DNA from: Tethya wilhelma
Lineage: Eukaryota; Porifera; Demospongiae; Tethyida; Tethyidae
Assembly (NCBI GenBank): GCA_964030475.1
Contig: CAXIPT010000010.1
Coordinates: 2,776,366-2,840,365 of the forward strand
Direction: 5' to 3'
DNA: 64,000 nt
In this document: one piece after another, positions 5,546 through 27,836 of the stretch
How the letters are laid out: the number at the start of each line of letters is the position of its first letter
How positions within the stretch are numbered: position 1 is the first letter of the stretch
Made by a program: the position numbers and the translations under genes
Notes under the pieces: model-generated
Database searches by the model: none
Seen by the model: the letters and a program-made list of their open reading frames with translations, nothing else
Told to the model about the DNA's origin: nothing

Positions 5546-6257
5546 AGATAGATCAACTTCAGATATGACCTGAGAATATATGTTTAATCAGTACATGATT
5601 CAGATAATTTCCAGACATCGTTAAGATAAATCGCTCCAGTAGTGACGTTGTGCCGGGAGCATGTCTGTCTCATTTATTTATATAATTATAATAATGCATA
5701 ATTATATTTTTGTAAATTACTAAAAATCTTCTAAAAATTGGAAAAAATTATTGCCTAAAGATAATAAAATAGTTACATCATAATTATAATTATCTTATAC
5801 TGCAAAACAAAAAAAATTATGAGTTAACTACTACGAAAGGAATCTAAGACTCTTGGAGGTCAGACTTGATCCTACAGTACAAAAACAGGAGCATAATTAT
5901 AATAATGCAAGCACTACAGTACCACATCATATTCCTTGTATAACAACATATAATTATTGTACACAAAAATGGCGCCATTTCTGTGTACCCAGTATTACTG
6001 TACTGGGAATTGATATATAAGTTTTATTGCTGGCAAGGTTGGTCCATTAGCACAATTCATGTGAATAACTGCAAAACTGAGCACTTGCCCCCAAAAGGCT
6101 TCTCATAAACTTATTCTTTTTCTAATGAGCTCAAAAACATGGCCTATAAGACACCTAAAACCATCCAACCCAAAAGAACCATAAATACAACATCAGTCCA
6201 TCACTAAAGCAACAAATTAAAATAAGCCAAAGTCTCCAATTTTTTCTCCATCATCTT

Positions 6258-6428
6258 CTCCTTCTTCTTCTTCTTCTTCTTCTTCTTCTTCTTCTTCTTC
6301 TTCTTCTTCTTCTTCTTCTTCTTCTTCTTCTTCTTCTTCTTCTTCTTCTTCTTCTTCTTCTTCTTCTTCTTCTTCTTCTTCTTCTTCTTCTTCTTCTTCT
6401 TCTTCTTCTTCGTTTTCTTCTTCGTCTT
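6258..6428. repeat. (CTT)n trinucleotide microsatellite
   Basis: An essentially uninterrupted TTC/CTT array of about 165 bases runs from 6258 and then degenerates (CGTTTTCTTCTTCGTCTTCC). The purine strand is GAA. It is not part of an open gene. Sequence from 6430 to 6960 shows nothing else recognisable. Confidence 0.95.
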
Positions 6429-6969
6429 CCTCCTTAAAGATAATTATTCAAGAGCTTTCTTAGAGACTATTCACTTTAAGTTCTTGAATGAGTTTCTTTG
6501 TCTTCAATAGCTATTTCATGCCATGGGTTTTAATTTCGTTGCTAGATACCAGGGGAAAAAGCACTATCTCGTACATGCAGCTATAGGGTCAAGAAAGTTG
6601 TCATATTGATATTTGACGTTGTAGCATGTTTTCTCTGTAAAATTGTACACAATATCTTATAGTACGAGTGTCAACCATAGACAGCCAGCATATTATTTTC
6701 TGGACACTATATGGTTCAACAGTCAATGGAATCTTGCAAGTTGAACTTGAAGTGCATCACGATGTTGTGTACAGTACTTTTAAATTAGTTGCGTCATCCT
6801 GACAGGGACAGCTTTTAGAAAAGAATTTAGGTAGTTATATTTGGGCTCCAATTAAATATGGTACTGATCTACTTCACAAAATGTTATTATGGGTTTGATT
6901 TGATATCACTTTATGCCAACATGTACACTAACGGCATGCATGTTACTATTCTTGTTTGCTAACATTTCT

Positions 6970-8098
6970 GAGTCTCTAACAATGCTACTATAGGCAAATA
7001 TCTGCTAACAAAAGTGATTTTGACAAAAAAGGGCCATTAGCACGCAAAAAAGAAGCAAGAAATCTTAGACGGGTAGCCCGGGTTTGCTTACTCATACTAA
7101 CCTTTTTGAGCTTTTTGAATGACACAATTATAAGTGTTCTTTGGTAAGTATAGCCAAGCGCTTAGCCTTTTAGATATTGACTATACCTTCAGAATTCACT
7201 CCATTGCTCTAACACAAGAAAAAAAAACAACACTTAGCTCATACTCTAGCAGACTGATCAGCACTTAATGCTAATACTGGTGTGTACCTTAACTTAATTA
7301 AATACTAGCGAAAATTAGTGGCAACAAAAGTAAGCTATAATTATAACACAAAGGTATATACTATGATAAACAATTATTATGATTAAAATGTTAAGTTCGC
7401 ATGAAGAGGTGTTGGAGGACAAGTGTTTTGAAACACTCTATATCTAGAGCAGAAACAATGTTGGCTGGCAGTTGATTCCAAGCTCTAAATGTGTCACAGA
7501 AAAATGAGTAATAGTATGGATTTGACTTTGCGAATGGAACCTTTAGAGTGAGACAGTGAGATCTTGAGTTATGACCAAAAGCTGCAAACTGAATTAAGTC
7601 TGGAGTGGTAGGCATAATATGATAGCTGCCATTGAGAAAGTTGTAGAGAAAACAGAGTTTAAGATAGACTCTTCTCGTTTCCATCTTTGGAAGATTGCAA
7701 AATGCAAGCAGAGAATTGTACTCTACACTCCATTGTTTGGTACATACTTTCAATGGAAATTTTTGCACATATTCTATCATATTATTAATGAGACACTTAT
7801 GATGAGGTGCCCAGACAGCTACGGCATACTCAAGGTCGGGCCTGATGCATGAGAGGTAGATTTGGAGCATAGTTGAAGAATTTGCATGCTGGTAGTAGTT
7901 TCTATAAAGGGCTTCAATTTTTTTTTCTCTAAAATTGATTATGCCTTCCGCCCATGCTCACTAATTACCTGACTTGTCTACCTCTCTGTTATTTTTCGAA
8001 AGCATCACGTGAGAAGTTTTACCAGGCCTTCGGTGGCTTAACTTTGTAACTTGTGAAATATAAAATACGCGCCACGGAAGGCCTGGGAACAAGGCTAT
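6970..8098. repeat. dispersed repeat H, copy 1, split by a LINE fragment
   Basis: Positions 6970-7265 match 22425-22710 closely (shared words GCAAATATCTGCTAACAAAA and AGCGCTTAGCCTT). The match resumes at 7940 (GATTATGCCTTCC) as at 22728. The intervening 7266-7935 is the LINE fragment, so the LINE landed in this repeat. The right edge near 8080-8098 (GGCCTGGGAACAAGGC) is the reverse complement of the AGCCTCG..CCCAGGCCTTCC word that starts copy 2 at 22206. That suggests a terminal-inverted-repeat DNA element. Confidence 0.55.
7391..7925 (-). pseudogene. LINE (non-LTR) reverse transcriptase C-terminal fragment
   Basis: The minus-strand frame ending at 7391 carries the typical end of a jockey/CR1-like ORF2 protein. 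It has LYLSCIRPDLEYAVAVW-like sequence at its start (here IYLSCIRPDLEYAVAVWAPH), and near the end RAWNQLPANIVSALDIECFK followed by a short hydrophobic tail. In this family the block lies just after the polymerase thumb and closes the protein. The 5' part is missing, as usual for 5'-truncated LINE insertions, so the copy is not functional. It interrupts repeat H, since the flanks 6970-7265 and 7940 onward are contiguous in copy 2 near 22.4-22.8 kb. Confidence 0.75.
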
Positions 8099-9026
8099 AC
8101 TCAAACATGATTTGTAGGATTATGAAAAAATAAGAACAAACAAACATTGGAAATGTAATGAGACACAGGAATGGCTAAATTGTAAAATGAATGAAAATAA
8201 GATGGAAGTGGCTGTTAGAGTGTGAGAATTTTTCCTGTGGGCAATTGACAGACTCAAAAGAGGAGCCTGTGTCAAATGCAGCCCATACACGAAGAATTCT
8301 GCACACACTCTATTTCTGTCTTGTTTGCTTTTTTTGTACGATTTGGCCATAGCTGTGTCTCATTACATTTCCAACTTGATGTTTTTTATATATTTTATAC
8401 TCGTATAGAGCCTGTGAAGAAAGTGAGCATGCAAGGGCAAAAGTGAGCTGCATGAATTATATATATGTCTTTTCAGAGTCTCAGGGTGATATGAACAGAA
8501 TAACTGAGGGAAATATAGGTACAAAATCATAATTATAGGACTAAAAATTTTTTCAGAAAATTTCAAGAGATCTTGTTAGTGTTGATTTCCCTTGTAGACA
8601 AGAAAGAATCCAGCAAGAAGTCTAATAAAGTGCTGGTTTGCAAGCATTTTAGAACATGCCTACTGATGGGCATTATTGAGATATACTAGGTCTTGGTAAT
8701 ATTGGTAAAGCCTCAGGTTTACTCCTCAATTATCTGTGTAGTTCTGATATAACGGCCTATAGTCAACATATTTTATTTTAACTCATTTACAAAAAAAGTT
8801 TTAGCACAGATAGCTTGTTTATTAAGCTTCTTCAAATTAATGACCATTGATTTAAAAAAAAACGAATAGCTACTAAATTTTATCATGCACAGTATGTCAC
8901 ATACTGCATTTTCTATAATATTATTTCTTTCACTAATTTAAAAGTCAGTTCGCCAATATCGTTTGAGCTAGTTCACACCAAATTATTATAGTAGTACATG
9001 TATATTAACATACAAATTAAACTTAC
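8099..9026. other. non-coding stretch, possible terminal exon of the phosphorylase gene
   Basis: This is AT-rich DNA downstream, on the minus strand, of the phosphorylase exon. A pyrimidine tract and AG precede 8503 on the minus strand. Joining the exon end at 9027 to 8503 in phase 1 gives only seven or eight codons before a TGA at 8481-8483. That is one plausible gene end, but it cannot be confirmed from sequence alone. I see nothing else here. Confidence 0.25.
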
Positions 9027-9896
9027 ACATGGCATCAAATTTGCTCCCTTCATCTGTTTGTTCGAGGCAGTAGTGAACATAATCAACAGCCGCTTTGGCT
9101 GAAATTGGCTGCCAAACTTTTGTTTTATCTTCATTCCCATAGTCAGCAACTCCTTTTATGACAATTACACTTGGTTTTAGTTTCCTTTTTTTCACTTCAT
9201 AATCATGAAAAATTTCGAGCAAAAGTGATCCTTCCATTTCTCCACCAATTGGCTTATAAATAGGATCTAAGAGGAGCTGTTTAAATGATTCATCCTTAAT
9301 GAGATTTGAAGAGGATACTAGTCTTCCAGCAACCACACTTGAAGAACGATCTCCAGAAACTTTGAATTCCCATTCATCCTTTATATCAGTATCATCAAAA
9401 TACAGCAAAATTTGAGGATCAACCCTACAATCCCCTTCTCCATCACGAGGTTTGACACGGCCTGATTTTATTTCTAGAGTCGAAGCATCAGTAATATATT
9501 TGGACACCATGACATCGCCTAGTTTGATGGCCTTCGGATTAACTCCAAATCCTACTCCAATACCAATAATGGCCTCAGCATTTGGGAAAGATTTCAAAGC
9601 TACCAGTAGTGGATTTTTTGCTCCTTTACACTGATCTGTATAGACTAGGGCAATTGTATAATTGGCAAACTTTCCTATCCTAAAATTGATTGTGACATCC
9701 TTGAATTTATATACTCCTTCTTTGCTTTCCAAGGGTGTCATTCTTTCCAGAACTGCTTTGTACTCATTGGGATTGCATGTTTGGAGAATAAGCTTCACTT
9801 TGCTATACAGAGATAACTTCATATTCTCATCATTGGGAACATTAATGGTTTTGACTTTTTGGAATGTGCTTGCTAAAGGTTCCTCAGCACTGGCAC
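9027..9896 (-). CDS. nucleoside phosphorylase-like (PNP_UDP_1) domain exon of a Death-domain gene
   Basis: An 870-base minus-strand exon encodes 290 codons. The acceptor is AAATTAG at 9897-9903 and the donor is T/GTAAGT at 9027/9026. Motifs fit the purine/uridine phosphorylase fold: NAEAIIGIGVGFGVNP (glycine-rich), KLGDVMVSKYI, then GGEMEGSLLLEIFHDYEV and SVIVIKGVADYGNED near the C-terminus. GEMEG and KGVADYGN correspond to the substrate-pocket ME and the (S/G)D region of the family. Stand-alone enzymes cleave nucleosides with phosphate. In corals, sponges and fungi the domain is also found fused to Death, NACHT or other immune-type domains, where the reaction is often unproven. Entry and exit are both phase 1, which matches the linker exon at 17958 and the Death-fold exon at 19336. 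I infer one gene. Catalytic status is unknown. Confidence 0.8.
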
Positions 9897-10790
9897 CTAA
9901 TTTTGACAAAATTATAATGCATAATCATGACATAGTGATAAGTGTTCAACTAGTCTACAGCTAGTCATAAACCCTGCCTCTTAATTTAAGAGGTAGAGTC
10001 TAGGACTTGACTATAGTGTTCAACATGGATAAAACACCACTGGAATGACCAAATCATAAGACTATGGAAAATGATGTAGCAAGATGCTTGCTTGCTTGCT
10101 TGCATGGTCATGTAACCAGATTATTGAATTACCTATAGAGTAGTGAGACTTGTGTATCACTAACTGAACTTTTATGATTTTCAAATTGCCTGCTTGCTAG
10201 CCACCCCGGCCCACATAATATTGTGCATTTTGTGTGAGGTCTGCTTATCAGTGAGGTTTCTGAACAGTGTTAGTTTGCAAGTGTATCACTAACTGAAACC
10301 CCGCCAGTGTACAACTGGCTAACCGTGATTTCAGGATAATTTCAGACATTTGTGTGGACCAGTACTACTTCCAATTTGAGTATCGGGTTAAAATAAAGAG
10401 GTCAGTTTCAGCTTTTTTTCAATACTGACAAGCAGTTACAACGTGTTCAAATGAGCAAGAGATCTTAGTAGACCCCAAGATCTTCTGCAGCATCTTCGGG
10501 AGTGTCAACCCAGAGAAACAGCACAACAAAGAGAGCCATGGAGACAGAATTTCTGCAACAGAAAGACAATAGCGAGATGACAATTACGCAGTACATAAGA
10601 GGAAAACACTGGTCGAGTAAAGGCCTAGTCATCAGTGAAATCATCTCTAAACAGTAGTAGACTGGGTCTAGAGAGTCAAACAGGCCTGATCCACAGCTGT
10701 ATATAAGTTCCACAGTACCATGTCGAATATTACAACATGTAGTCAGTGTGAAAAGCAATAGGAAAGTATAGCGACTGCCGGTGTCATGTG
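9897..10790. other. intronic DNA of the phosphorylase gene, no feature
   Basis: This is non-coding AT-rich DNA with a short GCTTGCTTGCTTGC run at about 10087-10105. An open frame at 10465-10758 on the minus strand has no recognisable domain and I do not call it a gene. Confidence 0.4.
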
Positions 10791-10794
10791 AAAT

Positions 10795-10965
10795 TGGTCA
10801 CCCCCCATTTTAGTCACCCGAGGTGACTAATCTCACGGTAAAATCTAAAATTCTAGTCACCCGGGTGCCCAATTTACCGTTAATTTGGGAACCCGGGTGA
10901 CTGATATACATGCACGAGAAATCACGCACCCCTTCGTAAAAATGGTCACCCCTTTCACGACTTGG
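10795..10965. repeat. GTCACC-rich palindromic patch
   Basis: A short region repeats GTCACCC / GGGTGAC in both orientations (GGTCACC at 10797, AGTCACCCGAGGTGACT at about 10813, AGTCACCCGGGTGCCC at 10855, ACCCGGGTGACT at 10890, GGTCACCCC at 10944). These are nested small inverted repeats of unknown origin. They may be the core of a small foldback element. Confidence 0.6.
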
Positions 10966-11752
10966 ATGGAAGAGCAAATGCGCTCTTAGAAAGAGTAGGT
11001 AGACTGTTATTGATTCTTGGTACTCACTATATAGGCCTAGATCTATGTCAATTTACCTACTTTTGTACTTGTATCTTGCCTTAGTTCAGCTGCACTGCAA
11101 TGTCTGCATGCACATAATATAATATATGATGCACCTAGCGCCTGAGCGCTTGCTTTTTATTATTTTGCTGATCAACAATCTAATCACAGATCATCAACCT
11201 GACATGTATACAATGATGTTCAAGTTGTCATGTGATACTGATTTATTAATCAATACATGTATACAGAAACTGATTTATAACTAATTTTGATGATAAAAAA
11301 CTTGAAAAATCTAGCCCTAGAACTTGAACAGTATAATAAATGAAATTTAATGATAAACAGGCTAAAACTAATAAAAAGTGTTGACTTAATCTATTGCTGA
11401 AACACAAATCAGTACCATGTTTGAGGAATTGCTTTAATTTTGCCTTTAAAGACAATTATTCGAAGCTATGTCTTAGATTACCCATAGCTAATTATAAGCT
11501 GAAGTATTGTAGCGAGTAATTATTTATACTAGGAAAATGTAGAACACTGTGGGATGAGTATGAGTGATTGCATACTTAAGTGCACCCTTCTTCTCGGCTT
11601 TATCTCATGAACAATACAAGAGTAGTTAATGATGTTAAAATCTAGTAAGTTTTGGTTGACATATCAACTGGGGAAGACTACCGACTAATTAATAATTCGT
11701 GTTTTAGGGGTAGTGTTAAAATTTTAATTTACAATGAATATTAATCATCTCA

Positions 11753-12039
11753 TCACTGTTAAAAATAGTGTGTCCACATTACTGTTTGACTTTTACACAC
11801 TAGTGTGTTAAACAACACCCTTTTTCTGTTGCCATGGAAACGTTTGATGTGGTTTATGTTCAAAGAAGCATATCTTCATGTGGACTAACTTTTCTGGGGA
11901 TTGAATACTGAAATATTAGTTTTCAACATCTAAAGAAGCTTTTGAGTTACATTATCATGCTTAAATGCACATTTAAGATTTACACACTTTAGGTGTGTTA
12001 AATTTAAAGTGCATGGGAACACACCATTTTTAACAGTGA
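11753..12039. mobile_element. MITE with TCACTGTTAAAAA terminal inverted repeats
   Basis: The left end TCACTGTTAAAAATAGTGTG (11753) is mirrored at the right end, CACACCATTTTTAACAGTGA (ending 12039). The similarity continues inward (ACACACTAGTGTGTTAAAC against TTTAGGTGTGTTAAATT). It is about 287 bases long with no coding capacity. I did not find a convincing target duplication. Confidence 0.7.
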
Positions 12040-12289
12040 TTTTACAAATTTGGGAACATGTAATAAAAAGCTCATACTCATCCTAAATAGCAGTATATTT
12101 TGTTAATTTAAGTTTTATTTAGCGCAATTTTGCTTTTTTTGCAAAAATATGTGCAAGGAAACTATAATTGTCACATTCCAGTTGCTGAATTTCAAATTCT
12201 TTTTTCTTTGACAATTTTACATGCAGCACTAGTCATCCATTTCCACATCTAAGATGTAAACATGGCAGATACGAAGTGTCGCTGCCGTA

Positions 12290-12720
12290 GCTCATGCACC
12301 ACTGCCAACAAACTACAAGTTGAGTGCAAAACAATTGTACGGTTTGTTGCATCGACTACAACAGAACACAGAGATTCCAAGAGAATATGATGCAATCATA
12401 CATCAGAAAATCACAGATGACAAAGTGCAAGTGGTGAATCAAGTAGAAGACTCCAATGATCACAAGGTTCATTATTAACCACATCACACGGTAATCCAAA
12501 TGGAACCATTGTTTATACACAGGTCCTACCAAAAGATCTTCGACATCTTGTTGAGATTTCACACATACAAGGTCGCTCTCACAACTGACATAGAAAAAGA
12601 TAATCTCTAGTGAAGATCGAGATGCTCTCAGATTTTTATGGGAGGATGACATCACCCAACCCAGTTAATTACCCCCATTGAGTTGTCAGTGAGAGTACTG
12701 TGGAGAACAGGCATATGTTT
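12290..12720 (+). pseudogene. BEL/Pao retrotransposon reverse transcriptase relic
   Basis: Blocks of a BEL/Pao polymerase appear in order but are frame-broken. EIPREYDAIIHQKITDD (about 12370-12420) is followed by KVHY, a stop and PHHTVIQ (12465-12500). Then come ILLRFHTYKVALTTDIEK (12544-12597) and EDRDALRFLWEDDIT (12611-12655). KVHY.PHH.VI and the VALTADIEK-like block are characteristic of the RT region in this family. No LTR is visible next to it. It is a dead fragment inside the long phosphorylase-gene intron. The rest of the interval to about 13900 shows no recognisable gene. Confidence 0.7.
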
Positions 12721-13902
12721 AATTGACAGCACTGGTCTTGGAGACCTTCATTGCTATCAATCATCTCTTGCCAAGAGGGTGAGTTATTTACAAACTTTCT
12801 CAAACTGAATGAGTCCCTTTTTAGCATTACCTTGATGTCAATGTACATCTAATATGCAGTTGTTCCTCTATTTGGTTTGTCTTGGAGCATTTCCTTTCTT
12901 AGGACAGTGCTTCCAATACTCTAGTTGTACTAAGTTGCATATTTCAATGACTCTGTTCTCAACCGAAAGGATTTCCATGTCTTAATTATTGTCAAGACCT
13001 TAAGCTTGGATCCAAAACTCTTGAGTCACCTGTTGTCTGTTATGTTGTAATTGGGGCAACATGAGTCAATGATGCTACAAACTTCGATTAAGTGTCTGCT
13101 TCTGTTTCTATGGCCAGATACACCACTGCAGCATACGCTTAGACAGAACTGTCAGAGAATCCATAAAGTTGACAAGATTTTGTTTCTTCCTAAAGCTTGG
13201 TGTAAATTGAGTGGGCGGGGATAGAGGTAATCATTAATGATATTCATAGGCTCATAGAACCTCTTGATACTATCTCAAAGCCGAAAGGATTTGGTCTAAA
13301 AATGGCTGATTATTGCTCAAAAGGGTCAAAGGTCAAATTTAGTAGCTCCGCTCTAAAATGGATTTTTCTGCCATTGCCCCTCACTCATAGGCAACAACTA
13401 CCAGGAGACAACAGATCAGCGAAGAAAAGTATGTTGAAAAAAAGCAAAAAAACCGCTCATCAAGTCTGTAGAAGGCTTTTTGTAATATACATGCACTTTT
13501 GACAACCACATTCTCTTGCAAAATGTCTAACAGGTAAACAGGAAACTGCTCCCACTCAGTCAAAAACCCAGCGTGATATTCAAGACACACAAACACCCTA
13601 CAAGCTCACATACCTCACTGCCTCTCTCCTCTCTCCACCAGGGAAGGAAAATGGATTTCATACAGCCCTGTCAAATTAAGTTTTCCTGTACAGACTCACT
13701 TTGAGCTCACCTAAATGACAGAAGAGTCAAAGGTCAGAGGTCAAAAGTCAATCACACTCAACACACGCTTGGATGGACAGCCCACTGAGTTTCGAAGTCA
13801 CGGCTAGCACACACTCTCCACTAGCCATCCTGCAAACTTACTGCACATTTTCATGCATATCACTACATAGCCATCCTATTGCATGCACAAGACACACCCA
13901 TA

Positions 13903-13903
13903 N
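13903..13903. other. assembly gap (single N)
   Basis: A single unknown base separates two unrelated-looking contexts. All six N bases in this window sit at such joins, so each probably stands for a gap of unknown size. Distances and splice predictions across it are unsafe. Confidence 0.8.
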
Positions 13904-14049
13904 CTGCGGTCCGCGGTTTATAAAGAAGTTTCTTTGATGTGGTCTAAGTTCCGGTCACTTGTTCGAAGACAACTTCCGGTTGCTAATTTTTGCACAAAAT
14001 GATCTCCAGCACCTCCTGAACACTTTCATTTTCAATTGTCTATTTTGAT

Positions 14050-14313
14050 ATAGAAATCTTGGACACACCCCTTCACGATCCACTAATTAAATCAGCGATA
14101 GCAAAAGTACTGCCCACTCAATTTACACCAACCTATAAGTTAGAGAAAGATTGTTACAAACAGCACTTTCTTGATGTTAAGTCGAATGTTACAATTAAAA
14201 ACCATCTACAAATTGTTTTGAGTGATCTAGGATGGGACAACCTCGCAGCTAGTGAATGGAAAAATTTGGGGTACTGCATATATGTACTAAAAGTACTAAT
14301 AATAATTATGTAG
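14050..14313 (+). CDS. unassigned open segment, possible exon
   Basis: A plus-strand frame beginning near an AG at 14050 reads DTPLHDPLIKSAIAKVLP and continues for about 80 codons of ordinary amino-acid composition (GWDNLAASEWKNLG near the end) before running into low-complexity sequence. I do not recognise a family. It lies just after a contig join and could be an exon of an unseen gene or a mobile-element relic. Confidence 0.2.
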   Translation: MEILDTPLHDPLIKSAIAKVLPTQFTPTYKLEKDCYKQHFLDVKSNVTIKNHLQIVLSDLGWDNLAASEWKNLGYCIYVLKVLIIIM

Positions 14314-14975
14314 TTCATTTATGAATAAGGCCCGGGAGCACAGTTTATAAATAAAGAGCTACATATAAATAAATGAAGAGCACCAGTTACAAATATTTGC
14401 AGGCTGCCATTAAATTTCCTTTTCTAATTGTCTTCTCTCCTGCTAGTAGAAAATCTTCATGTACCTTGGAAAACATAGCTTGAGATGCATGATTTTTCAA
14501 GTTAATTGTGCTTTTGTCACTAACTTCATGGTTACACAAGTCAATTACTCTTTTCTCTTGTTTTGTCAAAAAAATACACTCATACTGTACTCTCACCGGG
14601 TCGACTTTGCTTCAATATCGATGATATTGACTCAGGTTCAGGACTGCAGGAACTCGGTCCAGGAGAAAGAAGGTTGCGTTAAGGTTCTGGTTCAGGAGAA
14701 GCCATGCTTTTAACTGTCTTACACGCAAGATACTCAATTTGTATCACATGACTGTCGCATAATTAAATCACCTACCTCACATGCATATATAGTTGGATAA
14801 TTTTACTTAGTATTAGTCTTTCGTGGCTAAATTTTAGTTAGTTTTCTATACATTTATTTTACTATCAATTTTTAATTGTTATTTTCGATTATTAATTTCA
14901 GGTGAACTAAAATTGATTTTAGTTTTTATTATAGTTAACTAAAACAAAAATTGCTTTAACATAATAATGATTAAA

Positions 14976-15830
14976 CAAGTAGTAAAAAATTTCATTAAAA
15001 GTGTAGGAATGGGCAGTATTGGAACAAGGAATGTCTCAATTTTGGCATCCCTCATAAATGCAATGATATGTACAATAGTATACCTGGCTTATTGCATTGG
15101 TTCAAATTCTTACTAATCAGTTGGCTAAGAAGTGGAGTAAACTATATCAGAGAGGTAACTTAAACTGGACTGCCAGGCAAGAGTTGGTTGTAAAAATGAA
15201 GTAGTCATGTGCCGAAATTGAGACATTCCTTGTTCCAATACTTTTTACTGCACTGCCTATTCCTATATATACTACTAATTTTTTTGAAATTTTTACTACT
15301 TGTTCATTCACTTTTTTCAACACTACAGTGTGAAGACTATCAGAGACAGACTGGTTAGTCCCTACAAAAAGCTTGAGTAGCAGCCATGCACTACATTATG
15401 CTGAGGAGGCTAATGCACATGCGCATAATAATGCCACGTAGATAGACGATGACCATTGAACTCAAGATGGCTGCATTGTATAGTACATGAATTTATACAC
15501 TAAGTTTCAAAAGTTTTCTAGTTTTTGTTTAGGCATACTTATGATCAAAACAAGTATCAAGGAATGTAGTACTCATGAAAAAACTTACTTTGTGCTGTCA
15601 AAGTTGCCATTGTGGCTTCCAATGCACTAGCACTTCTACAAGTGCTGATAAAAGTTTTGTGAGTTTTAGCCCTTGCATACAGTTGGCCATCTGTCATTGA
15701 GAGCCTCTGAACAACTTTAAAGGTTTAATTTTGTTTGAATAACTAGATTTTTATAGTGACCAACATTTTGTATTGTGTCTATGGGACAGTCGGCCCATTT
15801 CTACTATAATTATGTATATTGTACGCATGA
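14976..15830 (-). mobile_element. B-A composite repeat, reverse orientation
   Basis: The palindrome A occupies 14976-15300 (GTGTAGGAATGGGCAG at the left, CTGCCTATTCCTA at the right). Arm B in reverse follows to about 15830 (TTTGTATTGTGTCTATGGGA near the end). No protein is encoded. The motif cassette is decayed here (CACATGCGCA, CACGTAG). Confidence 0.8.
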
Positions 15831-15953
15831 TATGTTGGTTAGATAGTGATTGTAAGTGTTTGCTCCCCCTGTACGCCTTATGTGTACCTTACTTGTACGA
15901 TAATCACAGAAACTATATACTACCACATCCAGTTTCAAGATTATAAGTACATT

Positions 15954-16165
15954 ATCATATGTATGGTAGTACCTATAGTACTATAGGAATGGGCCAACTG
16001 TCCCATAGACATAATACAACTTGATTTTTTATTGGTCACTATAAAATCTAGCCAAACAAAATTAAACCTATAGAGTTGTTCAAAGGCTCTCACTGACAGA
16101 TTACCAACTGCATGTATGGACTAAAACTCACCAAAACTACCCTCAGCAATGGTAGGGAGCACAAG
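15954..16165 (+). mobile_element. B arm fragment of the B-A repeat
   Basis: It starts ATCATATGTATGGTAGTACC and contains GGGCCAACTGTCCCATAGAC and GATTACCAACTGCATG, as in arm B of the full copies. It breaks off near 16165. From there to 17060 I see no clear gene. A minus-strand open piece at 16700-16791 beginning MKEKHVLAKVLHELKRKRDE, with a good donor (ACAG/GTGGGT), could be an exon but has no recognised family. Confidence 0.65.
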
Positions 16166-17061
16166 TGGAACTCCGGAAAGGCTGTAACTCCAGACACTTC
16201 AATATTTTTGCCGAGTTCTGCAGCCTCGGAATTTCTTTGCACGAGTTTAGCTGATTTAACTTAGGCCACACATACACCAATGACTGCTCAACATCAAGAG
16301 TTCATAATACAAAGAGAAGAGAGTGTTGAACTGCCATATATTTCATACATTATGTCCTCGGAGAGTCATGTGCTCGGAATTTTGAAATTGACCAATGAAA
16401 TCACAGCAGCTATTGGTGCCAATTCGGCGTTCGAAAATTAGTCGTGTTGCAAAAATGGACAACTCAATGGACAATTACCACAGTTAGCCCAGTACAGAGA
16501 CTGCTCAAGTAGAATAGGTACCTTAGTACTGTCTAGTGTTGTCTCAGATATTCTTATTGCTCTATACTTTCTACTTGGAACACTTCGTAGCTACAAAATG
16601 TAGCTGTGTTATGGACTTTGTGGCTCGCTGTATAGGTACCCGCTACCTGCTGATGGTGAGCAAGACAAAAAGAAGTCTCTATCTACTAAATTCTTGACAA
16701 GCCTTGAAGCGTACCCACCTGTAAGGTTTGTTTCATCTCGTTTTCTTTTTAATTCATGAAGCACTTTTGCTAGAACATGCTTTTCTTTCATCTTCCTAAC
16801 TCAATGTCATGTTACTCTCCGAAGACAAAATGTATTACCTATACGGCAGTCCGATACTCTCTTTCCTTTGTATTATGAACTACCAACATGCGTAGCTGGT
16901 TTGAAATTGCTAACGTTTTATTTTTCCTGGTCAAATCTTTAGATTTTTCTCAACCCCACATCACTTTTGTGACATTTTCTGAGCAGTTTGCCATCTATTT
17001 TGTCATTTCCAAAGGCCAGTCAGCACTAAGACCATATGACAGTCCATTCTACAGTCATCTG

Positions 17062-17350
17062 TCTCTTATAGTTTACTACACTGCTTATAGCCAACTGATT
17101 AGTAGAAATTTGAACCAATGCAATAAGTTGTTATACTATTGTACAGATCATTGCATTCAGTAAGACATGGAGGATTGAAGAATCACAAATAAAAATTGTA
17201 GTCATGTGCTAGCCCTAGTCTCAGGCTCCCTGCTTACTTTACATGCATGTGCCAAAATTAAGACAATGTCATGCCTTATTCCAGTACTTCTTATTGCACT
17301 GCCCATTCCTATGCTTTTTTTGTTTGTTTTTTGAAATTTTTACTAATTGT
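17062..17350. mobile_element. A palindrome, partial copy
   Basis: This is the loop and right stem of the A palindrome: AGCCAACTGATTAGTAG, TTTGAACCAATGCAATAA, then ACTGCCCATTCCTA and TGAAATTTTTACTA. The left stem is missing. The stretch 17360-17957 shows no further feature. Confidence 0.6.
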
Positions 17351-17957
17351 ATAATTAGACCAGCTCTCTCCCATCCATTAGAGATGGGATGGTTGGTGGT
17401 GTCTGTCATTCTATACTATTAGGGGGTTACCCCTTACACCTCCAGGCTCAGCCAGGGTATGGCATAGTAAAATGATGTTTCCCCTCATGGTGGCAGTGGT
17501 GGCATGGTACCTGGTTTGGGTGGAAATGCCTGCCATCCTTTGGCTGCGGCAGTATTAATAATAGCTTAATTATTGGGTCGTATGGCATATGTGACAATGA
17601 TACCTCAAAATTTTACTAAGGGGGAAAGTTTGGACAGCGGATGCATGGCCCAAGGTCAGAGTGTTACTTGGACAGTTGATCAAGCAGAGTCCCACCAACA
17701 TCTACTAAATAATAGCCTCCATCATTAATGGTAGTGAACTAAGTTAAGAGCGGTAAGTGATGGGGGTTAACGGACACAGGCGAACATTATTCTGAGTAGT
17801 TCACAATCACTAAACGGTATGTATTTTATAGTAATTTTTACTAGAATTTGTGTGTGTGCACATGTAATGTATCTAGGGGGGTGCAATTATAAAGCCCAAA
17901 TAACAATAAATTCAACACAATAACCACTGAATTTAAAGTATTATAATTTATACTCAC

Positions 17958-18014
17958 CAGGATTTTCCATCGTTTTTTCTGGAGTAGTATGATTGTGTGC
18001 TGATGCTGTAGGAC
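17958..18014 (-). CDS. 57-base linker exon of the Death-phosphorylase gene
   Basis: On the minus strand the acceptor ATTATTATAG precedes 18014 and the donor CCTG/GTGAGT follows 17958. The exon is 19 codons long, phase 1 at both ends, and encodes a Thr/Pro/Ala-rich linker (PTASAHNHTTPEKTMENP). Joining it in phase with the Death-fold exon upstream (ending CSG) and the phosphorylase exon downstream (starting ASAEEP) keeps the frame open throughout. That three-way fit is the main evidence. No expression data are available. Confidence 0.55.
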
Positions 18015-18142
18015 CTATTATTATTATACACACAAAGCATCATGATGACATTATAAATAAGATCCGGGATGGTAACAATTAACAGGATATTTTTTTGACT
18101 ATATTCATAGCTTCATATAACATAGTAAATTAATAGTACAGC

Positions 18143-18968
18143 TAGAAGTAACTATCATACATACGGTAGGCGATTTTTTATCTGACGTATATACACTTTT
18201 TGGACTTTGAAATTTTCAGGCGCCCAACACACTGGTAAAGGTTGTCGTGTGTATTTGCATAATGTGCTGGCGCTATAGCATTGGAGTCTAACTTTGCTGA
18301 GACTGACAGTGAGCTGAGCTGCACTGCATTTCAGCCTGCCACTAACCAGCTAGAGTGCTATGGATCTTAATTGCTAAGCTAGGTGGCAAGCTATCAGCTA
18401 GCTAGCATTCTGCAAGCATGAAGACTGCCATAGATGCCCCAGAACCAAAGTAACTGAGCTTCTATTTTAGTAGATCTACATAAATAACATACACCAAGCC
18501 ATGGAGTTTACCAGCAAGGCTAATAACATTTGCATTTTAACCTGGTAGATACCTTTAGAGGCTATTAGCCAATCAACTGCACCTAAAATAAACTTTACGT
18601 ATTACTTCGAAAGCATTCAATGGCTGCACTGAGCTATATCAAACAGTTCGATCAAACAACTTATTGCAGCATGGACTAATACAAAATTTGGTTGATGCAA
18701 ATTGCACTCAGTGCCACAGTATGCTTGCAAATTCAAAGCATGGCTATCTGTTCTGTTATTTTGTCAGAAATTTGTTTGAAACTATAACGTAATAAATTGT
18801 GATAGACAGCCACAACAGGTAGAGATTTAGCAGAGATAGAACAAGTTACTTAAAGTCTTTGGCCTATAGCTGCATAAATTGGGCCAATGAATAGACACGC
18901 CTAGCTATGGCGCGCACTTAATTGTGACGACCATTTCCAAGTGATGCTGTTGTGAAAATCATCTAAGT
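18143..18968 (+). mobile_element. dispersed element C, copy 1
   Basis: The left end TCATACATACGGTAGGCGAT runs on into TTTTTATCTGACG. The right end carries ACCATTTCCAAGTGATG and ATCATCTAAGTCCAAAAAG, giving imperfect inverted ends around CTTTTTGGACTT. The interior matches 62336-63045 in reverse (for example CAGTTACTTCGGTTCTGG against CCAAAGTAACTG). It has no coding capacity. Its first 15 bases are nearly the same as the start of arm B. Confidence 0.75.
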
Positions 18969-19318
18969 CCAAAAAGTATTGGAAAAAGGCATGTCTCAAT
19001 TTTGGATCATGACTATATACTTCATTTTTTTACACCAAACTCTTGCCTAGTAGTCTGGTTCAAGTTACTGCTTAGCCAACTGATTATATAGGAATTTGAA
19101 CCAACATATTTAAGCTACGGTATAATTATAATAATATATTGTTATCCTATTGTACAGATCATTGCGTTTATATGATACTGAGAATCCATATGAGTGATCA
19201 AGAACAAAAATGAAGTAGTCATGAGGCAAAATTGAGACATGCCAAGCTGTTCCAATAATTTTTGCCGCACAGCCCATTTCTACACTAATTTTTTTGAAAT
19301 TTTTACTACTTGTAATTA
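18966..19318. mobile_element. A palindrome copy
   Basis: The left stem (TATTGGAAAAAGGCATGTC) begins directly against the end of element C. The right stem ends CCCATTTCTACACTAATTTT with TGAAATTTTTACTACTTG. The stems lie about 130-150 bases apart and can fold into a long hairpin. Confidence 0.7.
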
Positions 19319-19335
19319 TATTGGTAAGGACAGAC

Positions 19336-19593
19336 CTGAACACTGTTCCTTAAATATCCTCTCAGCAACTCCATTCTGACCCATTACTCTCAGTTTTTCA
19401 ACCAGCACTTCCCATGTAACTTCTGTCACTTTGTTATCTCCTCGTATCCATGCAGTCACCATTTCATCAGGTAGGTTTCTCATATTACTAACAGAAAATA
19501 CATCCAGACCAAGCAGACAACCAAGTTGCGGGATATGTCTATGGACATCCAGTGGCTTCAAATAATCTACCACAGTGAAGAAATCAGCTTTCC
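19336..19593 (-). CDS. Death-fold domain exon
   Basis: A minus-strand exon of 86 codons has its acceptor after a strong pyrimidine tract (CTTGTCTTTTTCAAG) and its donor TTCAG/GTCTG. It is phase 1 at both ends. The protein reads ADFFTVVDYLKPLDVH, then LGLDVFSVSNMRNLPDEM and VTAWIRGDNKVTEVTWEVLV, and finally a helix ending GVAERIFKEQ. The order LGL, then a short helix, then M..AW, then TWE.L...L...G....A..I is the classic signature of Death-superfamily six-helix bundles. These recruit partners by homotypic contacts in apoptosis and innate immunity. It lies upstream on the same strand of the linker and phosphorylase exons and in the same phase. Exons further 5' were not found. Confidence 0.7.
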
Positions 19594-19945
19594 CTTGAAA
19601 AAGACAAGAAGTTGCAACATGGCAGTGAGGTGAAAACAAAGCTAGCTAGCTCGTGCACAATGTACATGCCTACAAGCTAGAAAACACTTAACATAATACA
19701 AACTTTTGTATTTATTACAAACTGTGCAATAATTAGTTTTTCTTTTGATTGCACTTGAATAATAATAGCAAGGAGTCTTTATTGTTCAATGCTTCATGTA
19801 CAGCGACAGAGAAACAGACTCCTAGAAACAAAAGCTCTCTTTTTGCTACATGAAAGATTTGCTTTATCACAGCTTCTTTGTCTGATAGGGATATCACTGG
19901 TAAGCCTAATTGTTAGCAATCTCAAAAACAGTCAGCTATATATAA

Positions 19946-21255
19946 AGTATAAATAAAAATTTATAAAAATTAATGAGTGTAGGAATGGGCAGTGCCATAA
20001 AAAGTAATGAAACAAAATTGTCACAATTTTGGCACTATTGGCACACGACTACTTCATTTTTTTCTTTTAAATTTTTTCTTGTTGCCAAGTGTTGCAATTG
20101 CCTTGGATTTGGACCATTCTTATTTACGATTACGTATACAGTGGCTTAGAGTCAGTCATCAGTGAGCTGCAACTGATAATATTAGTATTGAGTATACAAT
20201 GGACACTGAAACTGAAGTTGTCAATGGATCTGATTCATACTTCAAATCATAATGCATATTGTAATGCACAATATTTTGACATTCCTCAATTTCGGCACTA
20301 TCGGCACATGACTACTTCATTTTTTTATGCCCAATTTTTCGTCTTCCAATGAAGTTGGCTATACCAAGTTGTGACATTCCTTGTTTCATTACTTTTTATG
20401 GCACTGCCCATTCCTACACTCATTAATTTTTATAAATTTTTATTATACTTGTTCATTCACTTTTTTGAACACTTACAGTTTAGTAATGAGATACTATTTT
20501 ACTTTCGAAAAAATGGTTGAGTATAATGGCAACAAAAGCATTTGAAAGAAAAGTTATACATCCACATGCAGTATAATTTTACTACATCACATCATACACA
20601 TGTATCTAATGCATATACAACCTATAATAGAGCAGTTGCACAACTGGTTGTAAACAGAAACCTTACAGTTTAAGTGCGCATAACGCGCGAGCTACTTAGG
20701 CTTGTAACAACAGCTGACCACGTAGTACTATTACGCAAGTAATGCAAAATGCACAATACACGGGGTAGTATGCAAACGTTCCCAAACGTGGTACCTGAGT
20801 ATTAACAAAATACGTCACAAAATGTCATTATGTTTGAGAGCGACCTTTGAACTCTACCTACAAGAAAATGGCTACATTGAAGTACGTGGATTTATACTAT
20901 TAACAGTTTTAAAGCTTTCTAGTTTTTTGTTCAGGCCTATTTACGATGAAAACTAGTATAAAGGAACGTACTACCCAAGAAAAGAACTTACTTTGTGGCG
21001 TCAATTAAAGTTGGCTCAACACTTTCTTGTTCTCTGGAAATCGTTTTCAAGTAAGTCAGTTAGAAGGAAGTAAGTAACAAAATTGCACTAGTGTGGCTTC
21101 CTGCAAGCGCTCTCTACGAGTGATCAGAAAGGTTTTGGCCTTCCAAGTTCCATGCAGTTGGTTTTCTGTCAAGGAGAGCCTCTGAGCAAGTTTGAAGCCT
21201 CTACTTTGTGTTGTTAGATTTTAATGGCGATAAATGTTTTGTATTGTGTCTATGG
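19946..21255 (-). mobile_element. B-A composite repeat, reverse orientation, end-truncated
   Basis: Palindrome A spans 19946-20460 (GTGTAGGAATGGGCAGTGCC, ACTGCCCATTCCTACACTC). Reverse arm B then continues to GTATTGTGTCTATGG at 21255, where it stops before the usual GGGACAGTCGGCCC end. The stretch 19640-19945 before it has no feature. Confidence 0.75.
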
Positions 21256-21840
21256 CTGATCGAGCACCCTTTAAAAATTTCGGTGGCGAGTCAGAGTGAG
21301 GCCCATATATAGCATAAATACAGCTGCAATGCATAACATTCATACACTAATTGCGTATAACAAAATGATACTATAAAGTACTTGGATTTTTACATTAAAT
21401 AGCCTGAATTTATTGCACAAAGGGGAGTGCCTTTTAAAGGGTTGGCGAAACAGTCAGCAGCAGTAGTGATAAAATAATTTTTGTAGTAAACAGTGATCAT
21501 TTATGCACAAAAAATGGCTAGTTTGTAGCCTACAGCTTCACCTGAGTTCAGCGCTTAGCCTAGTAGCAGGTGTGTTTGCTCAGCCTCTTGTAAATTATAT
21601 GGTAGATACAAAAATACCTTTGCCTTTGTCTTCCAGAGAGACTTTTCGCAATTTTGATACCACAGTCATATATAGCTAGAATACCATAATTCAAGTTATT
21701 TTTCTGCAGACGTACCTATGACATGATGGGCCATATTCAACTGAGTTAATTCAATTCTTGAAACTTGAACAAAGACTGTCACTCTTCAATAACCAACCTA
21801 GCTAACAAGGTATAGCTAAGTTACAGGGGGCGTATTAAAC

Positions 21841-22198
21841 AGGGGCGGATCCAGGAATTTGGAGAGGGTAGTTCGAATTACGCGCGGAAATTTTTGGCTA
21901 ACCACGCCCACTTTACATAAACGACGCGTATTTTACGTGCTGAGCCCTACCCACTTCCAGACTTTGTACTTACCTGCACGAGCACGAGTAGCGCTAACTC
22001 GCCGATTTTTAGCCGTTTAGTGCCAGAACCTTCACTTGTTTTGGCCTATCTACTGTATTCACTCTCAAAGTAAGTATTATACTTATGAGCGTCCACCAGT
22101 TGATCTTCTACTGTTTCTTGTAAAAAATTTTTTGATGAGCTGGCCAAAAAGGGGGGTTGCGTCCGAACCAAATAAACTACCCCTGGATCCGCCACTGA
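21841..22198. mobile_element. MITE with CAGGGGCGGATCCAGG ends
   Basis: The left end CAGGGGCGGATCCAGGAATT (21841) is mirrored by CCCTGGATCCGCCACTG (ending 22198). Inside is AACCACGCCCACTT, also present in the related copies at 29397 and 30976. It is about 358 bases and non-coding. Confidence 0.75.
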
Positions 22199-22205
22199 GT
22201 ATTTA

Positions 22206-22830
22206 GTAGCCTCGTACCCAGGCCTTCCCCCCAAAAAATGCGCGAGGAAAAAGGAGGGGAAGGCCAAAACTTCTCAACTTCTCACGTGCCTTACGTCAAA
22301 ATTCTTGTTCGCGAAATGCGTGGCCGGGCGACACTAACGCGCGTCTTTGCCAGGAAAACAAGCAGGTAGGTTTTCTGAACTTGTAACTGTCAACAACTAA
22401 CTTTTTGTTATATCTTGAGTCTATAACAGTGCTACTATAGGCAAATATCTGCTAACAAAAGTGATTTTGACAAAAAAGGGCTATTAGCACGCAAAAAAAG
22501 ACTGAAGCAAAAAATCTTAGCCTCGGACTGGTAGGTTTGCTCAACTCATATATACTCACCTTTTGAGCTTATTGAATGATACAATAACTGTTCTTTGGTA
22601 AGTATAGCAAAGCGCTTAGCCTTCTAGATATCGGCTGTACCTTCAGAATTTACTCTATTGCTCTAACACAAGGAAAAAAACCTAGCTCATACTTTTGCAG
22701 ACTGATCACACGCACGTGCTGCACGTTGATTATGCCTTCCATGATCCACCCACGCTCACTAATTACCTGTCTAAACTTCGTCTGGCAACGAACCAAGGAA
22801 AGGAAATAGGGAAATGGGAAACGAGGAATG
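22206..22830. repeat. dispersed repeat H, copy 2 (uninterrupted)
   Basis: It begins AGCCTCGTACCCAGGCCTTC and contains the 22425-22710 block shared with 6970-7265. It continues through GATTATGCCTTCC (22728) without the LINE insertion present in copy 1. The right edge is near AAACGAGGAATGCC at about 22820. Confidence 0.5.
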
Positions 22831-23219
22831 CCATGTTTCTGTATAGGGGATTGCATTGCAATGATAGATGTGAATTAATTTTAATTAATTACAGATTCTG
22901 AATTGAAGAGACCCACAGTGACTAGAGGAACGTTGAAGCCCACCAGAGTAACTCGATCAAAAGGTCAGTTACATGCAGCTAGCATCATGGTATAGTGCGT
23001 GTACAGTTCACAAATTGACACCATAGTTACAGGGTCCTTGAAACACACTGTCTCAAGTCCGTCTCAGATGCCCTCTCCTGGCACCCCAGGTATGCTATGT
23101 TGCTGTATAGGTGATTGCATTGCAATGATAGACGTGAATTAATTTTAATTAATTACAGATTCTGAATTGAAGAGACCCACAGTGACTAGAGGAACGTTGA
23201 AGCCCACCAGAGTAACTCA
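22828..23219 (+). CDS. small basic exons, tandemly duplicated
   Basis: Exon 22898-22962 (acceptor AATTACAG, donor AAAAG/GTCAG) encodes SELKRPTVTRGTLKPTRVTR. A second exon, 23033-23089, encodes LKHTVSSPSQMPSPGTP. Both are phase 1 in and out. The first exon and its intron flank recur at 23091-23219 with a few substitutions, cut by the N at 23220. Basic Thr/Arg repeats suggest a nuclear or chromatin-associated linker, but I do not recognise the protein. Whether these belong with the following SWIM gene cannot be told across the gap. Confidence 0.4.
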
Positions 23220-23220
23220 N

Positions 23221-24116
23221 ACAACTTTCTCTTCGCCGCAAAGTTGGAATCATTCAGGAATCTGATGCTGTGTGTGATGTATCATCATCAGAGGGAATTC
23301 TCAAAACTACAGCAGAAAGCTGTAGTTGCAAGTTTCGAACCAGCACATACTTACCTTGTCGTCATATGTTTGCTGTTAGAGAGAGAAAACAGCTTTCATT
23401 GTTTGATGGTGATGTGGTAGCATACCGGTGGACTTTACAGTATATGAAAGAAGTGTCCCTTACCAAAGGTAGTTCTGCTGGTGATGATACATTTCAGGTA
23501 AATGTTTGTTTTATATATTTCAACCAATTAAGTTACATCAATTTTATGCATGTAGATTACCACTATTGGAAAAGACCATGCTAAAGCTGTGTTGAGTCAG
23601 CATCAAAAGTTTCATAAAGCACAGCAAGTTACACAACAGCTTGCTACCATGTGTTCTGAAGGTGGTATGGATGAATTCAAGGAGTGCTAAGCATGCTAAG
23701 AGATAGCTGGGCAAATGGAGTGCAAGTGGTTCTCAGTTCTAATCCATCTACAAGCTCAGGTTAGCTTCATATATATTGTGTTCTTGATAATGCACATCAT
23801 GGCAGTGTAGTAACATACAGATCTAATATGCTCATTTTATTGTTTCAGGTGATCAAATTGTTTCTAATTTGTCAACTACCGATCAACTAATGTCTAAAGA
23901 GGTGTCCAGTAAGAGTAGTGATGGCAATTCCTTGACAGAAACAAACTCTAAAGCATCTACTCCAGACATGGATGTTGAAGACTCGAGTCCTAAGGAGACT
24001 CAGAATGGATCTACTGACTCATCATCCAGTCTTGCATTATCTGGTGATTCTATGTGTGTACATGATTATGTGTGCCAGCCAGTGTTTGAACTTGTGTCTG
24101 AGTGTGTGTATGTGCA

Positions 24117-24160
<44 letters not shown>

Positions 24161-24851
24161 AGTGTGGATATGTAGGTGTGCTACAATTATTTGACCAAGT
24201 TATTGCACCAACTGATTCTGCAGATCTCTCTAACATTGTTCTACCTCCAAAAATGTGCAAAAGAGGTAGACCTAAAGGAGCTGATAAAACCGTTATAGGT
24301 CTACCAAAAAAGAAACACAGAGGAGATAAGCCAATTCCATTTGTTAGAAAGTCTCCTCTTGAAAAGGAACAAGGTATATGAATTGTGTGCTATGCCATGA
24401 ATATGAATTTATTATGTACATGCATGCACACGCAGCAATTCTTTCTTGGTTTGTAGATGATGATATAGCTGCTGCTGCTATTCAAGGCAAGATTATTGAT
24501 GAAACTGAAGTTGAAGTGAGACCTGAAAGAGTTCCTGCATCTTGTCTAGATGAAAATGTTTGTTTGGAAAGTTGTAGAAAGTATTGCTCCATCGATGCTT
24601 GGAATCTAATCAACAGTGTTGTTGATATTATACGGAATGATCCTGTATACTTCTGTGGTAGGTGTACGAATCCCATTTCAGATGACACCCAGTCTTCAAT
24701 TGTGTGTGAGTCTTGCCTAAATTGGTACCACTTCAGCTGTCTTAACATGAAACAACCTCCGAAAACTAAAGTGTGGTTCTGCCATTTTTGTTATGCCGAG
24801 ATCTGGACTAAAATCTATTCATTGGAACCTATGTTGTGTATCATAAATTAA
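23221..24851 (+). CDS. SWIM zinc finger / AT-hook / PHD-like protein, Mutator-type transposase-derived, 5' partial
   Basis: Five exons are visible. Exon 23222-23497 encodes a SWIM finger, SCSCKFRTSTYLPCRHMFAV (CxC..CxH pattern). It is followed by 23556-23759, 23849 to about 24045, 24224-24373 (AT-hook-like CKRGRPKGADKTVIGLPKKK) and 24436-24851. The last exon has a C-terminal cysteine/histidine module, FCGRCTNP..CESCLNWYHFSC..VWFCHFCY, of PHD type. SWIM fingers after a transposase core are typical of MULE-derived and ZSWIM3-like genes. The expected N-terminal DDE core is absent because the sequence begins at an assembly gap. In exon two the frame breaks near 23685 (FK, then a one-base loss before VLSMLRD-like codons), so this copy may be dead. 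The TG microsatellite at 24121-24159 falls in the likely intron between exons three and four. Confidence 0.65.
24121..24159. repeat. (TG)n microsatellite
   Basis: About 19 TG units lie between likely splice sites (donor near 24045, acceptor CTGCAG ending 24223). It happens to stay open in the surrounding frame. Confidence 0.9.
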
Positions 24852-25118
24852 TAAATTTTATGTTTCAAGTTGTAGTTTTGTCTTTGTATGTATGACACAA
24901 CTGAAATTTTTGGTGGTTCAGTGTATACTATTTCTGTTATGGTATTGCTCTGTTGGACTATACCAAAGGCGTATATATAAACTCCTTGACCATACGTCAA
25001 TATAAACTTACTGCATAGCTAGCTGAAGCGCGCGCTCGCGAGTAGCGTCACGTGATCCGCTGCCGGATCAATAGTATTGGAAAAGGTCGCCCGGCTGCCG
25101 GATCAATAGCCACTGCGT
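24435..25118. repeat. segmental duplication, copy 1 (empty site)
   Basis: This block matches 28007-28705 with only scattered differences. It covers the last SWIM/PHD exon and about 270 bases of 3' flank, up to GGATCAATAGCCACTGCGT. At its left edge the bases GCAAT are uninterrupted. In copy 2 the same GCAAT abuts a BEL LTR. The stretch 25119-25630 has no gene. Confidence 0.85.
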
Positions 25119-25635
25119 TTTTATTATGCAAGCGATCGAAGTTAGTCACTAAAAGTTGCCGCCCGGCTACGAAAAATGATAGTTCTTTTGGTGAGTTTTC
25201 AATTGAAATAGACGAGTAGTGATTGGATTTGACTGGAAACGGAGGCCAAAATATTCTATAAGAGCAAGGTGAGCAGCTAAATCGTTAATTAGCTCTGCGT
25301 ATAGCATTGAAATTGTATTTTATTATTAATATATAGCTAGCGCTAGATTTTGTGCAGCGTTTCCAGTCAGAATAGCATTCTATGTGTTAATTACTTTCCA
25401 TTGATATCAAATAAGTAGCGATTACACAGCATTTTCGTAGCCGGAGACGGCAAATTAGCGGTTAAGGCAAATAAACTTTGACCCCCACTAATATTCATAA
25501 CCAATTAGCGTATCCATGGTAACCATGCATCATGAATATCTTTTACCACTATGCTATAAATAAACATAGTAGTATAGGCTCTCCATTGATAGAATACAGT
25601 CATTGCTTCACTGAATAAAGTCACTTTTGACAATA

Positions 25636-26269
25636 CATGTAGTAAAAATTTTGAAATAATAAGAAGTGTAGGAATGGGTAGTGCGGTAAAAAGTATTGGA
25701 ACAAGGTAGGGTCTCAGTTTCGGCACATGACTACTTCATTTTTATTTTTTAACCCTCATATGGATTTTTCAATGTCGTGTTGCAATAATCTGTACACTAT
25801 AATAGTACCGTAGCTTATCATATTGCATTGGTTCACTATTATAATAATTATTTGGCTAAGCAATGGAGTAAACTATAATAGACAGGTATATAACCTGCTG
25901 GCCAAGAGTTGGGCATAAAATGAAGTAGTCATGTGCCGAAACTGAGACCATGCCTTGTTCCAATACTTTTTACCGCACTGCCCATTCCTACACTACTTAT
26001 TTTTTCAAAATTTTTACTACTTGTTCATTCACTTTTTTCAACACTACAGTGTGGAGACTATCAGAGACTGGTTAGTCCCTACAAAAAGCTTGAGTCTCAG
26101 CTACATGCACTTCATTATGCTAGAGGCTAGTGCGCATGCGCATAATAATGCCACGTGGTAAGTGACCTTTGAACTCTACCTACAAAGATGGCTGCATTGT
26201 AGTACATGAATTTATACACTAAGTTTCAAAGCTTTCTAGTTTTTGTTCAGGCCTATTTACGATGAAAAC
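25636..26269 (-). mobile_element. B-A composite repeat, reverse, cut by contig end
   Basis: Palindrome A (25636-26025) is followed by reverse arm B up to the N at 26270. It contains a well-kept cassette, GTGCGCATGCGCATAATAAT, CCACGTGG and TGACCTTTGAAC (26131-26176). Confidence 0.8.
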
Positions 26270-26270
26270 N

Positions 26271-27703: not shown

Positions 27704-27836
27704 CTTTGAACTTGAATTGTTTAATTTGTTTAATTTGTTGTAATTTAATTTCATTATTGTGGACTCATGTTAGCTAGCTCTGAACATTTGATTGTATTAC
27801 ATGTAAGACCGTCGACGTCGGTCTTGGCCGGCGGAA

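Follow-up and report, generated by a model that had tools for sequence, protein, structure and literature searches.

Does the minus strand of a sponge locus carry a gene that joins a Death-fold domain to an enzyme of nucleoside metabolism, and what would such a protein do? The locus lies in a 64,000-nucleotide stretch of the Tethya wilhelma genome (contig CAXIPT010000010.1, positions 2,776,366 to 2,840,365; hereafter the window, meaning this whole stretch). From its letters alone, a first-pass annotation had proposed a Death-superfamily exon, a 19-codon linker and a PNP_UDP_1 phosphorylase exon, each in phase 1 at both ends and joined in frame. All three stretches lie on the minus strand where they had been placed, with AG/GT flanks and open frames (Table 1), and the reading frame is uninterrupted from the Death exon through the linker into the PNP exon. 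Our analysis bears out the order, strand and folds of the two large exons, and for the PNP exon also the pocket and the kinship to bacterial defence-type PNP models, whereas the linker, the symmetric phase and the phosphorylase label did not hold up. We consider the chances about evenly balanced that the locus is one minus-strand gene, or part of one, encoding a Death-fold domain and a C-terminal nucleosidase with the fold of MTA/SAH nucleosidase (MTAN), an effector that would be clustered through Death contacts.

The fold of the PNP exon is the clearest part of the answer. An AlphaFold2 model built on a 91-row alignment reached a predicted local distance difference test score (pLDDT) of 90 and a predicted template modelling score (pTM) of 0.91, and a Foldseek search with this model ranked MTANs and futalosine hydrolase first (MTAN, TMt 0.83, E 7e-16). 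By sequence, the 91-row profile matches MTA/SAH nucleosidases at 1.6e-14. The window open reading frame (ORF) itself scores 17.7 bits against Pfam PNP_UDP_1, below the cut-off of 25.1. In an alignment of 18 rows, made of the window exon and 17 paralogues from the same genome that are 35-45% identical to it, nine rows match PNP_UDP_1 at E <=0.01 (best 9.5e-9), and the trimmed window row has no such match at that threshold. The domain call thus holds at the level of fold and is sub-threshold in Pfam for the window sequence. Membership of the PNP superfamily stands, and because Foldseek places MTANs and futalosine hydrolase first, 'nucleosidase-like' describes the domain better than 'phosphorylase'.

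The pocket is largely kept. Both motifs singled out earlier are present (GGEMEG, given before as GEMEG, and KGVADYGN), and the window retains all five pocket residues E44, E219, E221, K247 and D251, which are conserved in 85, 90, 91, 91 and 88 of the 91 rows, respectively; among the 18 same-genome rows, L012 has R at position 247. The catalytic residues of MTAN are Glu12, Glu174 and Asp197. HMMER placed the EME and D of the window on the corresponding motifs in S. aureus MTAN, E44 probably corresponds to Glu12, and PDB titles among the Foldseek matches name mutants of MTAN Glu12 and Asp197. Fold and pocket motifs are therefore shared with MTAN, but the window sequence is 11-16% identical to its matches in the 50 structural alignments listed, has an extra N-terminal segment and stands in a fusion context.

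The nucleosidase belongs to a sizeable family in this genome, with relatives elsewhere. Three queries each returned 23 matches, which by overlap are the same places, and two of these matches are halves of one, giving 22 PNP-type places; a Pfam family search of the genome lists just one of these 22. PNP_UDP_1 matches outside this immune-type set were also seen, at G000 C1:25013209, C1:2533423/2534544 and C4:3598644. Three public proteins, P0003, P0005 and P0011, are 66, 63 and 62% identical to the window exon and form one clade with it (support 100/100). The contigs that carry P0003 and P0011 have the same reported length (1,400,629) and may be one and the same; they also bear Death-type ORFs, none of them especially close to the window Death exon. 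In prokaryote genomes, a scan recovered 111 loci that encode relatives, of which 80 were kept, and the best came from Hymenobacter and other Bacteroidota, cyanobacteria and planctomycetes. Since 20 of the 22 prokaryote relatives whose ORFs were inspected exceed 420 aa, they must carry more than the PNP part, and by eye a P-loop-like GxSGxGKT follows that part in L054, L058, L059 and L063. The PADLOC models 'Effector PN-superfamily' and 'PDC-M60C' match all 14 rows of a set made of the window and 13 public proteins at E <=0.1, with window E-values of 4e-4 and 2e-5, respectively.

The identity of the second domain rests on structure more than on profile. AlphaFold2 models the Death exon as a six-helix bundle with pLDDT 93, and Foldseek returned the FADD death domain as best match (template modelling (TM) score 0.67, probability 0.99, E 0.14), the top matches being the FADD, TNFR1 and p75 death domains followed by pyrin domains (PYDs), none at E 0.001. 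The window exon alone has no Pfam match. Eight of the 29 rows of a same-genome alignment and 16 of the 60 rows of a wider one, both including the window exon, match Death at E <=0.1, and 12 of the 29 match PYRIN. When the PDB was searched by sequence with Death profiles, no death domain came up at a meaningful E-value (none in one search, a PIDD chain at 0.33 in the other). The Death-superfamily call is hence upheld by the six-helix model and Foldseek and not by Pfam. A genome search gave at least 150 matches (149 besides the window) among 197 candidates. Among the best 30 Death loci fetched, the window included, seven share a downstream cluster of NACHT-type ORFs, six of them with a visible P-loop; in L033, the sole NACHT-type Death locus scanned, Pfam finds NACHT in an ORF at 4e-24. 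A 42-row tree places the window exon within a clade of 22 same-genome rows (100/99), which holds all six NACHT-linked exons, those of L030, L032, L033, L043, L044 and L052; the nearest neighbours of the window exon are L025 and L026 (86/72).

How do these exons relate to each other? Order, strand and phase agree, the phase match being a one-in-three event. A coding-potential scan gave no minus-strand segment above 21 other than the PNP and Death exons (101.6 and 30.9, with the next segment at 20.1), leaving aside a low-complexity repeat at 6225-6444; the model was trained on other loci of the same genome, PNP paralogues among them. The linker is open and properly flanked, but as an exon it finds no support, since such mini-exons are no commoner here than elsewhere in the window. 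The 9,439-base interval between the large exons holds six mini-exons that are open, phase 1 at both ends and followed by a GTRAGT donor, and three of the six share the donor of the linker and differ in the acceptor. The same count averaged 9.9 (range 0-24) in 24 overlapping stretches of equal length from the two strands of the rest of the window; for 30 Markov sequences the mean was 2.6. Because both large exons are in phase 1 at the join, the frame from Death to PNP is also open with the linker skipped. The Death-PNP join is plausible but unproven.

Table 1. Features of the Death-nucleosidase locus, in window coordinates
Feature	Position	Strand	Description	Evidence
Death-fold exon	19336..19593	-	85 complete codons; both ends in phase 1	open frame, AG/GT flanks
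Proposed 57-nt linker exon (19 codons)	17958..18014	-	open, AG/GT flanked; membership unsupported	
Nucleosidase exon, MTAN-like PNP superfamily	9027..9896	-	289 complete codons, acceptor phase 1	fold, pocket, clade, coding score
Alternative C-terminal tail and stop codon (8986-8988)	8986..9026	-	applies if the gene ends with the PNP exon	
Pao retrotransposon peptidase fragment, Peptidase_A17	13037..13192	-	inside the proposed long intron	Pfam PF05380, E 5e-8

Phase 1 at both ends of each exon had been part of the original argument. It holds for the Death exon and for the PNP acceptor; a phase-1 donor at the 3' end of the PNP exon is doubtful, as paralogues mostly reach a stop there. The family has 21 other places, and at 17 of them the open frame ends 41-54 residues past the KGVA motif (16 from one measurement, with L010 read separately; L007 and L012 run further and two places are cut short). 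The window frame ends 56 residues past KGVA, two of the three close public relatives also end their frame there, and AATAAA occurs downstream at 8823 and 8777. A further exon may still follow because the GTAAGT donor is strong, and at L019 an NB-ARC ORF lies beyond the stop. Nor is symmetric phase 1 a property of the PNP module, given that the introns between Death and PNP at the paralogous loci L002 and L012 (458 and 512 nt, splice sites by eye) are in phase 0. We have accordingly dropped the argument from symmetric phase-1 exon shuffling, which these phase-0 introns and the paralogue frames closing at a stop do not allow.

The same two loci show what surrounds the nucleosidase elsewhere in the genome. 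ORFs of eight PNP loci (L002, L003, L009, L011, L012, L014, L019 and L021) were put through Pfam, and L002 and L012 have ankyrin repeats together with a Death domain above the Pfam cut-off (Death at 1.2e-7 and 4.1e-5). This ankyrin-Death-PNP arrangement is a precedent for the Death-PNP order in the same genome. Pfam also finds COR-A at L009, L011 and L014, at L009 and L014 in the same ORF as the PNP part. At L003, ankyrin repeats occur in a same-strand ORF that lies 3' of the PNP exon and could itself be the following gene. Among the papers listed in our literature search, we recognised no printed precedent for ankyrin-Death-PNP or COR-PNP proteins.

Several of these places are worth recording in their own right. 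L009 and L014, and also L011 and L013 (the last by eye), look like ROCO-like proteins (COR-A) with a nucleosidase end. Three copies on G000 C6 (L013, L014 and L015) read GGEMQG instead of GGEMEG, so that a pocket glutamate is lost. L019 and L020 (G000 C7:2243428 and 2237827) are neighbouring PNP exons, 94% identical, and the NB-ARC-like ORF just downstream of the L019 exon recalls the fungal PNP-NLRs. At L021 (C1:19952983), a subtilase ORF and then a Death-like stretch precede a PNP fragment, which is attached across an N in the sequence; this may be a peptidase-Death gene whose end was misassembled.

An alternative that we regard as unlikely, yet well worth weighing, is that the PNP exon ends a real gene and that the Death exon, lying 9.4 kb upstream by chance, is part of a different and perhaps decayed gene. 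Death exons are common in this genome, at least 150 by our search, and the linker is not above chance. The window Death exon is without a close public relative: a direct search gave no candidate, and in a Death profile search of public proteins identity reached at most 48% among the matches listed (the best 120 of 127). As the PNP exon does have close public relatives, conservation of the partnership is unsupported, and the Death domains of L002 and L012, the two Pfam-level Death-PNP loci, sit on a branch distant from that of the window. But 150 matches in 124.6 Mb amount to about one per 830 kb, so that a same-strand Death exon within 10 kb would be unlikely by chance, a rough estimate given that the count is a lower bound and that such exons cluster. 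Moreover, the phases match, and the minus strand has no equally strong coding signal between the two exons or near them. Other observations also weigh against a single gene as we have described it. The 9.4-kb gap holds transposon (Pao) debris, and by eye both the PNP acceptor and the Death donor are weak, the latter (GTCTGT) being weaker than the GTATGT of the closest paralogues, L025-L027. No 5' exon with a start codon was found at the locus; the minus-strand frames upstream (19594-29503) have no Pfam match at E <=0.1. A candidate 5' exon at 19775-19885 (score 16.8) was not adopted, being by eye without a good phase-1 donor. The coding score of the PNP exon is favoured because PNP paralogues were in the training set, and in the 22-row Death clade, the 16 rows besides the six NACHT-linked ones, the window among them, have other or unknown neighbours.

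Two further explanations concern the state of the gene. That the MTAN-fold domain is a non-catalytic nucleotide-binding sensor or scaffold controlling Death-domain assembly seems to us a minor prospect. It would fit the divergence of the window from its same-genome paralogues, the N at position 254 where 89 of the 91 rows have D, and the pocket changes seen in P0011 (G for E44 and N for D251) and in several paralogues, namely Q at 221 in L013 and L015, with S at 251 as well in L015, D at 219 in L004 and L005, and D at 44 in L011; the changes at these positions also count against an active enzyme. Yet the window itself keeps every one of the five residues that are conserved in 85-91 of the 91 rows. 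A pseudogene under erosion by transposons is more improbable still: transposon-type matches lie in and around the interval, the Death donor is weak and the 5' exon is missing, but the PNP exon keeps all its 289 codons open and its pocket residues in place, and three public proteins match it at 62-66% identity. Overall, we continue with the reading of the locus as one Death-nucleosidase gene.

Fusions of this kind are known, since PMC8195603, in passages that we draw on here, reports them in bacteria and in Amphimedon, and the proposed window gene resembles those published combinations of a Death-like domain with PNPase. In Amphimedon, that paper describes many proteins in which Death-like domains and TRADD-N go together with variable C-terminal domains, PNPase among them. 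Those that end in PNPase would match the proposed window gene in being sponge proteins with a Death-superfamily domain at the N-terminus and, at the C-terminus, PNPase as predicted enzymatic effector, but they have TRADD-N, and none was seen between the window exons in scans of low power. Stop-masked Pfam scans of the three minus-strand frames from 7000 to 19600 matched the Pao Peptidase_A17 alone, a test with little power because PF09034 matches nothing in the whole genome. A scan for a TRADD-N exon gave a single weak candidate at 12402-12606, but the scan is not decisive, since the filters it used for pyrimidines and donors would probably have passed over the PNP and Death exons as well.

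The bacterial bDLD3-PNPase fusions, such as that of the Nocardia seriolae locus, share a Death-related domain joined to PNPase, but they are bacterial, stand in tandem gene loci and are likened here by description rather than by sequence (PMC8195603, same passages). In the bacterial plan described there, effectors carry one copy of a Death-like domain and core components carry another. According to the portions of PMC11249213 and PMC9966839 used here, the immune PNP effectors of Detocs and CBASS cleave ATP. They belong to the same PNP superfamily, and the likeness of the window and its 13 public relatives to them rests on the PADLOC effector models, not on any named effector sequence. Fungal NLRs also carry a PNP module in an immune-type fusion (PMC10197012 and PMC12881547, in part), but there PNP_UDP is N-terminal to the nucleotide-binding domain, whereas in the window it is C-terminal to the Death domain. 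The main text of a paper on Dysidea NLRs (PMC12909245), as far as it was available, contains neither 'pnp' nor 'phosphorylase'.

Other features were seen elsewhere in the window. A strong coding signal (55.3) lies at 44982-45500 on the plus strand, and the same ORF has a sub-threshold Calx-beta match (E 0.0036). On that strand, retrotransposon-type ORFs with integrase and DUF5641 occupy 26240-27703, with a PHD-finger ORF ahead of them (24363-24851) and after them an ORF (27983-28381) of which the opposite-strand reading is nearly identical. A DDE_1 transposase fragment (PF03184, E 1.9e-16) is found at 41612-42022 (+), a long TCT microsatellite at 6254-6429 and a 35-base tandem array at 61990-62309.

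What would the product of a Death-nucleosidase gene do? The subfamily common to the NACHT-linked exons and the window exon suggests recruitment by homotypic contacts, much as in the bacterial plan of PMC8195603: the Death domain would bind its subfamily counterparts, which this genome carries upstream of NACHT (NLR-type) ORFs. Assembly of such a sensor would cluster the nucleosidase domains and switch them on. The clustered enzyme could then hydrolyse an adenine nucleotide at its N-glycosidic bond, the nucleotide being most likely ATP if the bacterial immune PNP effectors are a guide, and the loss of nucleotide would starve the infected cell or its parasite. More tentatively, animals might use their own form of the split sensor-effector plan of bacteria, in which NACHT sensors share a Death subfamily with a stand-alone Death-nucleosidase executor that lacks TRADD-N, and an NLR would kill by recruiting it; we hold this as a speculative possibility.

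With 22 nucleosidase places, some of them next to ankyrin-Death, COR or NB-ARC neighbours, this genome is a useful comparative set. Should the fusion prove real and active, it would become testable whether the destruction of nucleotides serves animals, as it does bacteria, to carry out immune cell death, and whether an enzyme other than a caspase is at the call of Death-NACHT receptors.

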